Shown one piece after another: positions 49,083 through 54,202 of a DNA stretch of 64,000 nucleotides (position 1 is the first letter of the stretch; each line of letters begins with the position of its first letter). The notes under the pieces were generated by a model. That model was not told where the DNA came from, made no database searches, and saw nothing but the letters and a program-made list of their open reading frames with translations. Source of the stretch: Cryomorphaceae bacterium 1068 (GTDB lineage: Bacteria; Bacteroidota; Bacteroidia; Flavobacteriales_D; Cryomorphaceae). The stretch lies in the NCBI GenBank assembly GCA_027214385.1, contig JAPVXR010000001.1, positions 372,001 to 436,000 on the forward strand. The letters run 5' to 3'. The position numbers and the translations under genes were made by a program.

Positions 49083-49116
49083 GAACAAAAAAAGGCGACC
49101 CTTCCTGGCCGCCTTT
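49083..49116 (-). terminator. Rho-independent terminator after the CsgG/LPP20 lipoprotein cassette
   Basis: Stem AAAGGCG/CGCCTTT (49091-49097 with 49110-49116) followed on the minus strand by a run TTTTTTTGTTCTTG. It lies 22 bases past the stop of the last cassette gene. Confidence 0.8.
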
Positions 49117-49137
49117 CCTGATTCATAGAGTCGAGGA

Positions 49138-49728
49138 TCAGTTTTTCTTCAATTTTTCCATCTCTTGGTTGAAGGTTTCTTTGAACTGTTCGTAGTCATA
49201 GTCAATTTTCAACCTTTCGTCTTGAGATAACCTTTCATTCATAGCACCGATCAAGTCTTGTCCGCTCAACTCGATTGCCACATAGTATTTGTAGTTTCCG
49301 GTCTCCGTAACTTTCACTGCCTTTTGGCAAATGGTCTTAGTACCTGTTAGTTCTTGGTCCAGAACTTCACGGGTCAAACCTTCAAATCTTTCTTCTACCT
49401 CTTCGCGGTTGTTGAATTCACGTGAATTCACGTAGTTATCAATTGTTCCTTGGATGGTTGTATTGATCGCAGAGGCTAAATCAGCTCTCGCATTACTGAA
49501 TGCTTTCTTTTTGGCTGTGGCCTGATCCATGCTTTCTCCCAAACCATTTGATCTGAAGAATTCATCGTTGCTGAAATACTCTTCTCCGGCGCAGTACTCG
49601 TTAATTAAAACTTCTCCTGCGGGAGCTGCTACTTCTTTGTTTTTCTTGCAAGCCGTGAAGGCTAGTCCTACCGCCAAAAATAAAAAGGCAGTTTTTGCAA
49701 TTCCGGTGCTTCGTGCAATTGTTCTCAT
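49138..49728 (-). CDS. LPP20-like lipoprotein (third gene of the cassette)
   Basis: A 196-residue exported lipoprotein: hydrophobic segment and lipobox LAFTAC (Cys near 27), then CKKNKEVAAP. The body contains the LPP20-like segment ATAKKKAFSNARADLASAINTTIQG near residue 75, then a helix and a strand (YKYYVAIELSGQDLIGAM). The C-terminus is charged and helical. LPP20/FlgP-type domains form outer-membrane or periplasmic rings in other bacteria. It lies 56 bases after the longer LPP20 gene and is closed by a terminator. The function is unknown; family membership is by motif and moderate. Confidence 0.65.
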   Translation of the reverse strand: MRTIARSTGIAKTAFLFLAVGLAFTACKKNKEVAAPAGEVLINEYCAGEEYFSNDEFFRSNGLGESMDQATAKKKAFSNARADLASAINTTIQGTIDNYVNSREFNNREEVEERFEGLTREVLDQELTGTKTICQKAVKVTETGNYKYYVAIELSGQDLIGAMNERLSQDERLKIDYDYEQFKETFNQEMEKLKKN

Positions 49729-49784
49729 TGTTTCCGTATTAGGTTGTTAGTTTATTCAGAAATTGTGCCAAATGGCTATTGTGT

Positions 49785-51158
49785 TTAAAATAAGTCGTTT
49801 GCGAGCTTTCTCATCAGCTCTGATTCAATGTTTTTAGTGAAATTTTGATAAGCTTTGAGTCCGGCCTTCTCAAAAGTGAGGTCAACTCCTTTAATATCGG
49901 TTTTCGAAATCTTGTATACACTTTCACTTTTTCGAGCATCGATTACATTGGCATCGAGCTCGAGTCTTACAGTTGAAAATCCCTGTGATTCTCCCGTAGA
50001 CTTCGTATCAGATTTTAATTCGATGATTACGTCGGCTTTTTTGGGATCTTTCGTAAACCGCACCCCCTTTCTATTGAGCGACGCGATAATGGCAGCACTT
50101 ATTGGTTCACCGCTCATTTCGTTTCCCAAATTTCTTTCATCAGCATCGATGTGCACCAAGGGTGGTGAATAGTCGATCCGAGAAGAGATGCTTTTGCCTC
50201 TCAAAGATTCAGTCAGCTTTCGCATAAAGCTGTCTCCCTTGAAAGGTTCAAAAAGTTGTTCTGTATCGATTTCGGTTGAAAGCATATTTGGCTTAGTAGA
50301 CCGTTCTGCTTCCGAAATGGGTATAGTAATTCTGCCATTGACATTGGTGGAAAGCGAACCCTTGATTCTTCCGTACTGGCCTTGGTAAACGTAGTTGATA
50401 GGAACACCCGAAAGCGGTTGGCCCGATTCTGAATCAGCCACCGATAGTTCTGCTTCGGTTTGGTAACTGTTTTGAAAAGTGAGTCTTGGCTTATTGCTTA
50501 GGTCCAATACCACTCCGTCGAGCATTGATTTGAGTCCGCTGAATAGTTCATTGTCGAGCAATATTGATTGCCCGCGAAAGACAGCCTCGTTTTTGTCTGC
50601 CCAGAACTCCTCGATGGCTTGAAGGCCTCTCAAGTAATAGTCGACCGATTCAGAGTAGCGTCCATCAGCTTCGGCGGCTTCGGCTTTCGCTAGAAAGTCC
50701 AAAGCCAATGACTCAGCCGATTCTTTTTTCTGTCGTTGCTTTTCTGCATATGTGGATTTATCGAGCCGGTAATAAACCCAATATGCATCGGCATCTTCAA
50801 ACTGTTCTACAAGCTGAAAATCTTCCAAATCAAGATTGGTGCTCGTTCGTATGGTTTCTCTGAACTCTTGTTCAAATTTGTATTCGCGTTCAAGGGTGTA
50901 TAAGAGAGAGTTGGAATTGACGTTCACTTTTATTTCTGAGGCTAAATCGCTTAAGGCATTCTCTTTGGCCGCACTTCTGAAATCAGTTCCCGGCGTTTTT
51001 TGGGCAACTCCAATTCCCACATAGTAAGAGTTGGTAATTGGTCTACTTTGAACCCAAGTGGGCGAAGCAGGGAAGTTCTCTGTTGTAGCAACTTTTTTTT
51101 GGCTTGAACAAGAAAATAGAAGGACGGTACATAAAAAGACATAGCTCAGAACTCTCAT
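49785..51158 (-). CDS. LPP20-domain lipoprotein with C-terminal extension (second gene of the cassette)
   Basis: A 457-residue exported lipoprotein. Lipobox LLFSC (Cys about 17). An LPP20-like domain at about 30-135 has PTWVQSRPITNSYYVGIGVA and SAAKENALSDLASEIKVNV, followed by ADAYWVYYRLDKSTYAEKQRQ. A helical stretch (about 150-200) with a TPR-like unit comes next, then an Ig-like segment at about 230-290 (GQPLSGVPINYVYQG). The C-terminal alpha/beta domain (about 345-457) has GEPISAAIIASLNRKGVRFTKDPKKADVIIEL, resembling the nucleotide-free TolB/FlgT-type folds. It overlaps the CsgG-like gene by 4 bases, so the two are made together. Function unknown. Confidence 0.65.
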   Translation of the reverse strand: MRVLSYVFLCTVLLFSCSSQKKVATTENFPASPTWVQSRPITNSYYVGIGVAQKTPGTDFRSAAKENALSDLASEIKVNVNSNSLLYTLEREYKFEQEFRETIRTSTNLDLEDFQLVEQFEDADAYWVYYRLDKSTYAEKQRQKKESAESLALDFLAKAEAAEADGRYSESVDYYLRGLQAIEEFWADKNEAVFRGQSILLDNELFSGLKSMLDGVVLDLSNKPRLTFQNSYQTEAELSVADSESGQPLSGVPINYVYQGQYGRIKGSLSTNVNGRITIPISEAERSTKPNMLSTEIDTEQLFEPFKGDSFMRKLTESLRGKSISSRIDYSPPLVHIDADERNLGNEMSGEPISAAIIASLNRKGVRFTKDPKKADVIIELKSDTKSTGESQGFSTVRLELDANVIDARKSESVYKISKTDIKGVDLTFEKAGLKAYQNFTKNIESELMRKLANDLF

Positions 51159-52546
51159 TGGCGCATAAGTTTTGTGAGTTCTGAGGCGAGGTCAGAAGCT
51201 ACGCTTGAGTAGGCACTATTTGCTAATTGATCTACTGTTTGCAATGTCCTTTCGGCTCTCAACATACCTAAGAGTCGGTTTTTGTCAGAACGAGATGTAA
51301 TCACTCCATCATCATTTGCAGGGTAGAGTTTCGTAGCTTCACCTTCATACGACGCATAATACACATCATCAGAAATCTTTTTTTCTGCGATGTCAGAAAA
51401 CAGTACCTCACCGGTTTCCAGCGAGATGGCTTTGTACTGGAATGAGATGGATACTTCATTCGCATTGTAGTACTCTTTGTATGTTACCGGCTTATACCTC
51501 GTCTGGTAGTAGTGTTTGTCAGTCTCTTTATTGTAAAGTTTTACTCGGTACCCTTCAAACCCTTTCTTTTCAGAAACTTTCAATCGGCCCCTGCGCTCGG
51601 CGTAGGAAATGACGGTTCCCGTTATAATTGCCTTTGCGCCGAGCAAGTTTCCAACTTCTACAGCAGTCCCTTCATCGACAATTCCGCTCAGGCTCATTCT
51701 TTGTTCTTCCAGAATCAACTCCAAGTTATCTCTTTCGACAATTTTCAAAAAGGGATCATTGATCGCCGACAGTTCGGTAATGACAAAAGCAGTCAGTCTA
51801 TCGTTCACTCCTTTTTGCTTAGAACTATTCTTGAACTCACCTATTGCCACAGGGAATTTGCCTAAGTCGAGACACTCATCCCGAAGTACAGCTACATCTT
51901 TGTAATTGGGATCAACCCGATAGATTTCATCAAATTCGTAGTAAGCCAATCTGTATCTCCCACCATCAAAATGCTGCACTGCTGCGATGTAAAGTGGTTC
52001 GTTTACGGCAGTGTTTTTAAGAGCTGAAACATCCTTATAACCAGGTTCCAACTGCTCTATTTCCTTTAGCAAGATGGTAGCCTGATTGAACTTCTTATCA
52101 GCCATCAATTCGTTGCTCTCGTTATATAGCTCCTTGATGTATGCGGCTTTTACATCTTCATAGTCATCAGTAATGTAGCGTGGGTAGGTTAGGTCTATTC
52201 CCAATCGCTCCACCTTATCGTGGTAAGCCATGGCTTCCAAATAGGAATAAACCGCTTCTTTGGTTTCTCCCATGGCCTTGGTTTTGGTGAATTCATCCAC
52301 CTTGTTATTCAGCATTCGCTGGCCCATTTTGGTCAAGCCAATACGGGCATCTACATTGTTTCGATTTTTGAGTAGGGAATTGTAATAAAAGAGAGCAGCA
52401 TCTGAGTATAGTCCTGCCTCTTCAAGCTTTACAGCCTTTTTTGACAGCGATTTTGAGCCATTGCATCCGTATGCTATGAAGCATATCGCCATACAATAGA
52501 CCAGCTTTCTGATCAGTTTAACGTTGTATGTTTTGAGTAGAGGCAT
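51155..52546 (-). CDS. CsgG-like lipoprotein with N-terminal helical repeats (first gene of the cassette)
   Basis: A 463-residue exported lipoprotein. The N-terminus has a signal ending in IAYGC (Cys about 28). Residues 35-205 are TPR-like helices (AGLYSDAALFYYNSLLKNR, FNQATILLKEIEQLEPGYKD, YRLAYYEFDEIYRVDPNYKD). From about 210 a CsgG-family domain follows: ITELSAINDPFLKIVERDNLELILEEQRMSLSG and AVEVGNLLGAKAIITGTVIS, the hallmark R-D/L-ILEEQ and LGA-AIITG motifs, then SFQYKAISLETGEVLFSD. CsgG is the curli export pore, but related domains also occur in HfaB, LpoB and FlgT-type proteins. No csgA, B, E or F is near. It is likely the base of an outer-membrane complex. Confidence 0.75.
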   Translation of the reverse strand: MPLLKTYNVKLIRKLVYCMAICFIAYGCNGSKSLSKKAVKLEEAGLYSDAALFYYNSLLKNRNNVDARIGLTKMGQRMLNNKVDEFTKTKAMGETKEAVYSYLEAMAYHDKVERLGIDLTYPRYITDDYEDVKAAYIKELYNESNELMADKKFNQATILLKEIEQLEPGYKDVSALKNTAVNEPLYIAAVQHFDGGRYRLAYYEFDEIYRVDPNYKDVAVLRDECLDLGKFPVAIGEFKNSSKQKGVNDRLTAFVITELSAINDPFLKIVERDNLELILEEQRMSLSGIVDEGTAVEVGNLLGAKAIITGTVISYAERRGRLKVSEKKGFEGYRVKLYNKETDKHYYQTRYKPVTYKEYYNANEVSISFQYKAISLETGEVLFSDIAEKKISDDVYYASYEGEATKLYPANDDGVITSRSDKNRLLGMLRAERTLQTVDQLANSAYSSVASDLASELTKLMRQ

Positions 52547-52846: not shown

Positions 52847-54202
52847 ATGCAAAATGTATTGATCCTTGGAGCGGGGAGATCGTCCGTTTCACTTTTGGAT
52901 TATTTGATAGAAAGATCAGGACAAAATCAGTGGAAGATTATCATTGCTGATGCGAATCCCGAAGCTGCTAAATCTCTGGTAGACGATGCCGATGTAGAAT
53001 TGGTTCAGCTCGACGCCAAAAATGACTCGCAGCGGATGAAGTTGATTTCCCAAGCTGATCTGGTCATAAGCATGTTGCCGGCCTTCTTGCACATTTTAGT
53101 GGCAAAAGATTGCCTTAATGCAGGCAAGAATTTGATAACACCAAGCTACGTCAGTAAAGAGATGCGCGAGTTGGAAGATCAAGTAAAAGAAAAGGGTTTG
53201 ATCTTCTTGAACGAGCTCGGAGTTGACCCGGGTATAGACCATATGTCGGCAATGAAACTCCTTGATGAAATAAGATCTCAAGGAAATGAAATAGCCTGTT
53301 TCGAAAGCTTTACCGGTGGTTTGGTAGCTCCCGAGAGTGATAACAATCCGTGGAATTACAAGTTCACTTGGAATCCGCGCAACGTAGTACTTGCCGGACA
53401 AGGTGGTGCGGTGCAGTTTAAACACAATGGCAGATTCAAATACATTCCTTACCAAAAGCTATTTAGACGTACTGAGATTATTGAGATTCCAGGGTATGGT
53501 CGCTTCGAAGGATACGCCAATCGCGATTCGCTGAACTATCGAGGTACTTACGATCTGAAAGGTATACCTACTATTTATCGCGGAACTCTGCGTCGTGTGG
53601 GTTTTTGTAGAGCTTGGAATATTTTTGTGCAAATGGGAATGACCGATGATTCTTATACTATTGAGGATTGTCCGAATATGACGCATCGTCAATTTACAAA
53701 TGCGTTTTTGGCTTTTAATCAAAACGACAGTGTAGAGCTAAAGTTGATGCACTACATGAAGCTGGATCAGGATAGCGAGATCATTGATAAATTGAAATGG
53801 ATCGGAATATTTGATGACGAACCGATAGGGTTGGATAAACCATCTAGTCCTGCTCAAATCCTACAGCACATTCTGGAGAAGAAATGGACACTAGATCCAG
53901 GTGATAAAGACATGATTGTCATGTGGCATAAACTCTGCTACAAGAAGCCAGGTGAAGAAGAATTGAAAGAGATTAATTCGAGTCTCGTTGTGATAGGGGA
54001 CGAAAGTCCTCGAACGGCGATGGCCAAGACTGTAGGACTTCCTGTTGGCATGGCCGCAAGACTGGTTTTAAACGGTGAGTTCAAGATCTCCGGGGTGCAC
54101 ATTCCTACAATTCCTGAGCTGTATAAGCCAATATTATCCGAGCTAGAGGAGCATGGAATTGAATTCAACGAAAGAGAAATAGAAAATGCTAGCTTAGGGT
54201 AG
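52847..54202 (+). CDS. Saccharopine dehydrogenase-family oxidoreductase
   Basis: A 451-residue enzyme resembling the saccharopine reductase (glutamate-forming) half of LYS9/AASS. The Rossmann motif LILGAGRSSVSLLDYL is at the N-terminus, followed by ADANPEAAKSLVDDADVELVQLDA and ISMLPAFLHILVAKDCLNAGK. The central FLNELGVDPGIDHMSAMKLLDE and SFTGGLVAPESDNNPWNYKFTWNPR are typical of the family. It could take part in lysine catabolism through saccharopine; a partner lysine-ketoglutarate reductase is not in the window. The last 9 bases overlap the convergent lipoprotein gene. Confidence 0.85.
   Translation: MQNVLILGAGRSSVSLLDYLIERSGQNQWKIIIADANPEAAKSLVDDADVELVQLDAKNDSQRMKLISQADLVISMLPAFLHILVAKDCLNAGKNLITPSYVSKEMRELEDQVKEKGLIFLNELGVDPGIDHMSAMKLLDEIRSQGNEIACFESFTGGLVAPESDNNPWNYKFTWNPRNVVLAGQGGAVQFKHNGRFKYIPYQKLFRRTEIIEIPGYGRFEGYANRDSLNYRGTYDLKGIPTIYRGTLRRVGFCRAWNIFVQMGMTDDSYTIEDCPNMTHRQFTNAFLAFNQNDSVELKLMHYMKLDQDSEIIDKLKWIGIFDDEPIGLDKPSSPAQILQHILEKKWTLDPGDKDMIVMWHKLCYKKPGEEELKEINSSLVVIGDESPRTAMAKTVGLPVGMAARLVLNGEFKISGVHIPTIPELYKPILSELEEHGIEFNEREIENASLG

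Follow-up and report, generated by a model that had tools for sequence, protein, structure and literature searches.

A recurrent cassette of CsgG- and LPP20-type lipoproteins in Bacteroidota as a candidate outer-membrane ring

Several described envelope systems share folds with the proteins considered here. CsgG is the curli channel and FlgT belongs to the flagellar H-ring. PelC, of the Pel polysaccharide export system, is a periplasmic 12-mer ring around the tetratricopeptide repeats (TPRs) of PelB (PMC12141448), and PqiC assembles as an octameric toroid (PMC10897342). A correlate of ring formation in the LPP20/SHS2 family is a beta-hairpin insert that follows the SHS2 helix (PMC12222027). 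We have addressed a lipoprotein cassette in a 64,000-nucleotide stretch of the genome of Cryomorphaceae bacterium 1068 (the whole stretch is referred to as the window), in which curli-pore, Pel-export, Pqi lipid-transport and flagellar H-ring folds recur in a fixed Bacteroidota set that has neither a flagellum nor curli to work for. By analogy with these systems, and with middling confidence, we propose that its proteins A and B may form a lipid-anchored ring or scaffold under the outer membrane, resembling a PelC, PqiC or FlgT collar and not a secretion pore.

Names A, B, and C were given to three minus-strand open reading frames (ORFs) in window positions 49138-52546, of 463, 457, and 196 aa, respectively. 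The features of the locus are as follows (domain positions are residues of the proteins).

51155..52546, minus strand: gene A, a 463 aa lipoprotein with lipobox Cys28, TPR-like helices at 31-228 and a CsgG-like domain at 229-463
49785..51158, minus strand: gene B, a 457 aa lipoprotein with lipobox Cys17
Domains of B: LPP20/SHS2 at 31-146, a helical linker, macroglobulin (MG)/immunoglobulin (Ig)-like at 214-332, FlgT/TolB-N/CsgG-like at 331-457
49138..49728, minus strand: gene C, a small LPP20-like lipoprotein of 196 aa with lipobox Cys27
51155-51158, minus strand: ATGA (coding-strand sequence) shared by the A stop and the B start
49088-49119, minus strand: intrinsic terminator 3' of C, with a 13-bp stem and a T-run

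A sequence-only reading of the window had proposed three lipoproteins in one operon, a 4-base overlap between two of the genes and a terminator closing the operon, and all three proposals were borne out. The ORFs are present at the positions listed, and the lipobox Cys is invariant in the alignments of A, B, and C alike. The ATGA overlap is predicted to couple translation of A and B, while B and C are separated by an intergenic gap of 56 bases. The terminator following C folds with -22.7 kcal/mol (z -2.5).

Protein A matches the CsgG family (PF03783) with an E of 4e-15 (56.1 bits, cut-off 20.8), and this domain is present in all 21 orthologues of A. The match to TPR_19 is sub-threshold in A itself (E 0.0018), with 13/21 orthologues passing E 1e-3; the TPR plus CsgG-like architecture proposed earlier is thus upheld. 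The AlphaFold2 (AF2) model of A, with a predicted local distance difference test (pLDDT) score of 87.4, is all-helical at 31-228 and continues into the CsgG-like domain at 229-463. Its fold neighbours (VIA) are tied and comprise PelC (Z 13.7, root-mean-square deviation (rmsd) 2.3 over 118 residues), the PqiC-family protein XCC0632 (2iqi, 13.4), LPHT/FlgT (13.3), and CsgG (13.0, rmsd 5.3 over 170 residues). CsgG is the best match of A in both Foldseek (E 1.4e-6) and Pfam. Since direct alignment with E. coli CsgG by hhalign is weak (E 0.013), membership of A in the CsgG family was assigned from the Pfam match together with the fold. Rows of 14-3-3 proteins in the fold list of A reflect a common helical arrangement and were dismissed as having no functional meaning.

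In protein B, the LPP20 family (PF02169) is detected over the cut-off (E 3.8e-12, 46.9 bits, cut-off 25.9), and a match at E 1e-3 or better was obtained for 21/21 orthologues. Profile comparison relates the LPP20 domain to HP1454 (4kzs, E 9.5e-6), and in the AF2 model of B (pLDDT 82.6) the same domain resembles Lpp20 (VIA, Z 10.2), while the MG/Ig-like domain resembles MG4 of complement C5 (Z 11.2). The nearest neighbours of the C-terminal domain, at Z about 10, are LPHT/FlgT, LptE, PelC, and TolB-N. The Vibrio LPHT ring chain is matched with Z 10.1, which supports the earlier assignment of B as an LPP20 protein with a TolB/FlgT-like C-terminus. FlgT (3w1e) aligns with residues 44-457 of B in the same domain order; the rmsd is large because of the inserted domain. 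No sequence relation was found by hhalign between the C-terminus of B and the CsgG domain of A, and the two modelled domains appear alike only through common fold neighbours.

Protein C is under the PF02169 cut-off (E 0.0017, 19.1 bits, cut-off 25.9), and weak matches were observed in 15/20 of its orthologues, the best at 4.8e-4. Comparison of mature C (signal peptide removed) with the LPP20 domain of B by hhalign gave a score of 34.0 (E 4.5e-5), while maxima of 18.6 and 17.7 were obtained with 40 column-shuffled controls and with other domains, respectively. Judged by these profiles, the LPP20-like label proposed for C seems real but remote: a distant relation to the B domain stands, and recognition by the family profile does not. 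Besides the lipobox Cys, C has two further cysteines, 46 and 134, and because both are invariant, a disulfide between them is suggested. A second C-like lipoprotein (E 1.2e-22) was found in the same genome, without adjoining A or B (G000:C5:21644-22096; L139:7573-8118, minus strand). One C and one C-like paralogue are also carried by each of the Cytophagales-like genomes of family f19 and G015. In Bacteroidales (L072, L093, L094, L099), C heads a different conserved set, with exported proteins of ~345, 885, 340, and 280 aa encoded downstream; at L094, two caspase-like genes and a further protein of the LPP20 type are also present.

Conservation of the cassette was followed in two partly overlapping sets of loci. 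Of the 60 relatives sampled, 25 have gene B, among them all genomes of its own family, and 20 of these 25 B-bearing loci make up the order-level set. A and B are adjacent in 20/20 of them, with the 4-base overlap kept in 16/20 and C as the next gene in 19/20. The named set consists of 80 genomes located through C, from Flavobacteriales, Cytophagales, Chitinophaga-like genomes, and Bacteroidales. The order A-B-C is present in 48 of them, B-C in 24 and C alone in 8, and in six of the latter eight the A-B pair resides elsewhere in the genome. B-C without A occurs in many Cytophagales, and full-length A and B are uncommon in the phylum-wide sample. The A-B-C order recurs far above chance, in agreement with the conservation of gene neighbourhood across Bacteroidota that had been put forward as a check. 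The gene set is old and spread over several Bacteroidota orders, with a distribution that is broad but patchy, being missing from most sampled families of the phylum. In a distant family (L145:5406-7442), a 206-aa CsgG-domain protein without TPRs is located directly 5' of B, possibly a minimal form of the A-B pair.

Clustering of all ORFs neighbouring the cassette disclosed a fourth gene. It encodes exported proteins of ~280-350 aa whose C-terminal part is a DUF4476 domain (PF14771, E 5e-22), and it is the gene immediately 5' of A, in the same orientation, in 12/20 order-level genomes and in 34 of the 48 named A-B-C loci. A genome-wide search for DUF4476 gave no match in the source genome, in its congener, or in two further family members that have no such gene beside A. 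Because the gene is frequent 5' of A and is nevertheless missing from these genomes, the ancestral unit was likely DUF4476-A-B-C, as judged from the sequences compared. The DUF4476 member has been lost from this genus and is dispensable.

In the window, A is preceded by a 300-base gap and a divergent saccharopine-dehydrogenase-like gene (52847-54202), which is nearly always the divergent neighbour of A in Flavobacteriales. On the 3' side, the cassette is followed by a DUF423 protein gene and a phosphoenolpyruvate carboxykinase-like gene.

A curli system was ruled out, as the genome has no CsgF and A has no transmembrane (TM) hairpin motifs, and a flagellar H-ring was ruled out as the genome has no FliF. 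Searches of the genome gave no match to CsgF (PF10614), which is present in 25/244 genomes of the phylum, and none to the FliF/YscJ family. These results are consistent with the earlier suggestions that curli genes are not found nearby and that the organism is probably non-flagellated. One CsgG and one LPP20 protein pass the threshold in the genome, with no second of either. As a reference, 17 Bacteroidota CsgG encoded beside CsgF or CsgF-like genes were taken together with E. coli CsgG (n = 18). All of them keep recognisable TM1 (GGxGARYFG) and TM2 (KTILS...FRF...LLE...NEP) motifs, and these are absent from all 21 A orthologues. Beta-face scores were averaged over orthologues, with true Bacteroidota CsgG as a control, since single-sequence scores are too noisy. 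The best hairpin faces reach +0.26 to +0.67 kcal/mol per residue in A and -0.35 to -0.05 in the TM strands of reference CsgG; charged residues make up 19-39% of the A hairpin segments (30-39% in the long-hairpin strands) and 11-25% of CsgG TM strands. Averaged over the 21 orthologues, the hairpins of A have no hydrophobic face; this hydropathy measure is coarse and only moderately discriminating by itself, and the difference in motifs is clear. Protein A is therefore not a curli CsgG, and the channel that the sequence-only reading had offered beside a ring is not supported, given the missing motifs and hydrophobic face. Curli CsgG of Bacteroidota (L150-L168) have frames of ~455-504 codons, compared to 277 in E. 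coli CsgG, and carry a C-terminal extension.

Orientation in the envelope was approached by scanning 196 proteins, of which 162 have a strict lipobox (36/47 for A, 56/70 for B, and 70/79 for C). The surface-export signal of Bacteroidota is K-(D/E)2 (PMC5080379). In none of the 162 strict-lipobox proteins do positions +2 to +6 after the lipobox Cys contain an acidic pair, the core of this signal. The lack of this pair favours the periplasmic face for all three proteins, and A, B, and C are accordingly predicted to be lipid-anchored at the inner leaflet of the outer membrane.

The proposed mechanism can be outlined as follows. The operon would encode lipoproteins held by their lipids in the inner leaflet of the outer membrane and facing the periplasm. 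As an invariant coupled pair, A and B would use their CsgG/PelC/FlgT-type domains to build an oligomeric ring or scaffold together. From it, the helical repeats of A and the MG/Ig domain of B would project into the periplasm and grip a client, which might be the cell wall, a barrel of the outer membrane, or a machine spanning the envelope. C would have an accessory role in this complex, and the assembly would act as a collar in the manner of PelC, PqiC, or the FlgT H-ring. Ring formation, A-B contact and client binding are the steps that we infer. Rings prevail among the closest folds that have been characterised (PelC, PqiC family, FlgT, CsgG, and TraT), which makes an undescribed ring at the outer membrane plausible, and persistence of the A-B pair in genomes where C sits elsewhere speaks for co-assembly of A and B. 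A more elaborate version remains doubtful: in Bacteroidota that have neither flagella nor curli, A and B would make up a hetero-oligomeric double ring on the inner side of the outer membrane, the DUF4476 protein and C would serve as accessories or clients, and the whole would be an envelope machine of an undescribed kind. Several observations weigh against a ring under the outer membrane. LptE and GNA1162 have the same fold and are not known to form rings. The AF2 model of A is weak at 274-302. The ring-type beta-hairpin insert was not seen in B, its alignment with HP1454 being almost gap-free at this place, and the corresponding stretch (81-110) is modelled as helical with low confidence. Finally, the N-terminus of C, KKNKEV, resembles KKEVEEE, the divergent surface-export signal of MucG (PMC5080379), and surface exposure of C is possible.

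The main rival to the ring is a monomeric LpoB-like regulator, an explanation we regard as unlikely, in which A and B would remain monomeric periplasmic lipoproteins, with no ring, and would bind and activate an envelope enzyme or respond to envelope stress. LpoB activates the peptidoglycan synthase PBP1B. Its family, PF13036, is matched by A just under the cut-off (E 5e-4, 20.4 bits, cut-off 22.3) and by 11/21 of the A orthologues at E 1e-3 or better, and the unseen ring insert in B also agrees with a monomer. In a distant lineage (L144, L148), B and a C-like gene are found near a gene for lytic transglycosylase (L144) or SH3/M48 peptidase genes, hinting at a cell-wall link, whereas no peptidoglycan gene adjoins the cassette within its own order. 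On the other hand, UB2H (PF14814), the dock for LpoB on PBP1B, has no match in the genome, while the E. coli control is matched, and two coupled, fold-related subunits with additional TPR and MG domains suggest an assembly. PBP1B activation of the LpoB type is weakened by the missing UB2H.

A secretion pore is the least likely among the mechanistic options. According to this explanation, which we hold to be very improbable, A would be a true CsgG-type outer-membrane channel secreting a substrate, perhaps the DUF4476 protein. The rank of CsgG as best Foldseek and Pfam match would fit, as would the long beta hairpins that the AF2 model of A places where TM1 and TM2 are located in CsgG; however, the charge and missing hydrophobic face of these hairpins, the absent motifs, and the loss of the DUF4476 gene from a genus that retained A-B-C all argue to the contrary. 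It is also improbable that the three genes have no joint function, being unrelated lipoprotein genes brought together by chance or by shared expression. The occurrence of B-C without A in many Cytophagales and of C alone in some lineages can be explained in this way, but the 4-base A-B coupling is kept across families and the A-B pair is retained where C has moved.

Full-text searches of the open literature revealed no description of the cassette, and nothing relevant was found there on the LPP20 family, on CsgG in Bacteroidetes, or on DUF4476. All parts come from known fold families; what is undescribed, as far as could be found, is their combination, how widely it is spread, and the fact that it occurs where flagella and curli are missing. 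If the ring proposed for A and B is true, it represents a new outer-membrane machine in a phylum with envelope biology unlike that of E. coli; if it is not, the cassette provides a counter-example to the annotation of such proteins as curli channels.

Compared with the described systems, A shares with LpoB the sub-threshold PF13036 match in a genome without the UB2H to receive it. The LPP20 domain of B is similar to Helicobacter pylori HP1454 and Lpp20, whose C-terminal domains differ from that of B. With CsgG, A has in common the PF03783 domain, the lipoprotein nature, and the fold, but differs in its TPR-like N-terminal half, in charged hairpins without TM1/TM2 motifs, and in a genome without CsgF. 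The PelBC system likewise pairs a small CsgG-like lipoprotein fold with TPRs on the periplasmic face of the outer membrane; its TPRs are part of the barrel protein PelB, whereas A carries them in one chain with the ring-type domain. No gene for a barrel was recognised among the clustered conserved neighbours of the cassette. PqiC is an outer-membrane lipoprotein of the same fold class as A, which differs by the extra TPR domain and by the lack of a recognised PqiB-like/mammalian cell entry (MCE) gene in the conserved neighbourhood. C resembles FlgP in being LPP20-like. The likeness to FlgT is in the order of domains, LPP20/SHS2 followed by a TolB-N-like domain, and B departs from FlgT, FlgO, and FlgP of the flagellar H-ring and basal disk in showing no FlgP-type beta-hairpin insert, in residing in an organism without a flagellum, and in having a helical linker and an MG/Ig domain inserted.

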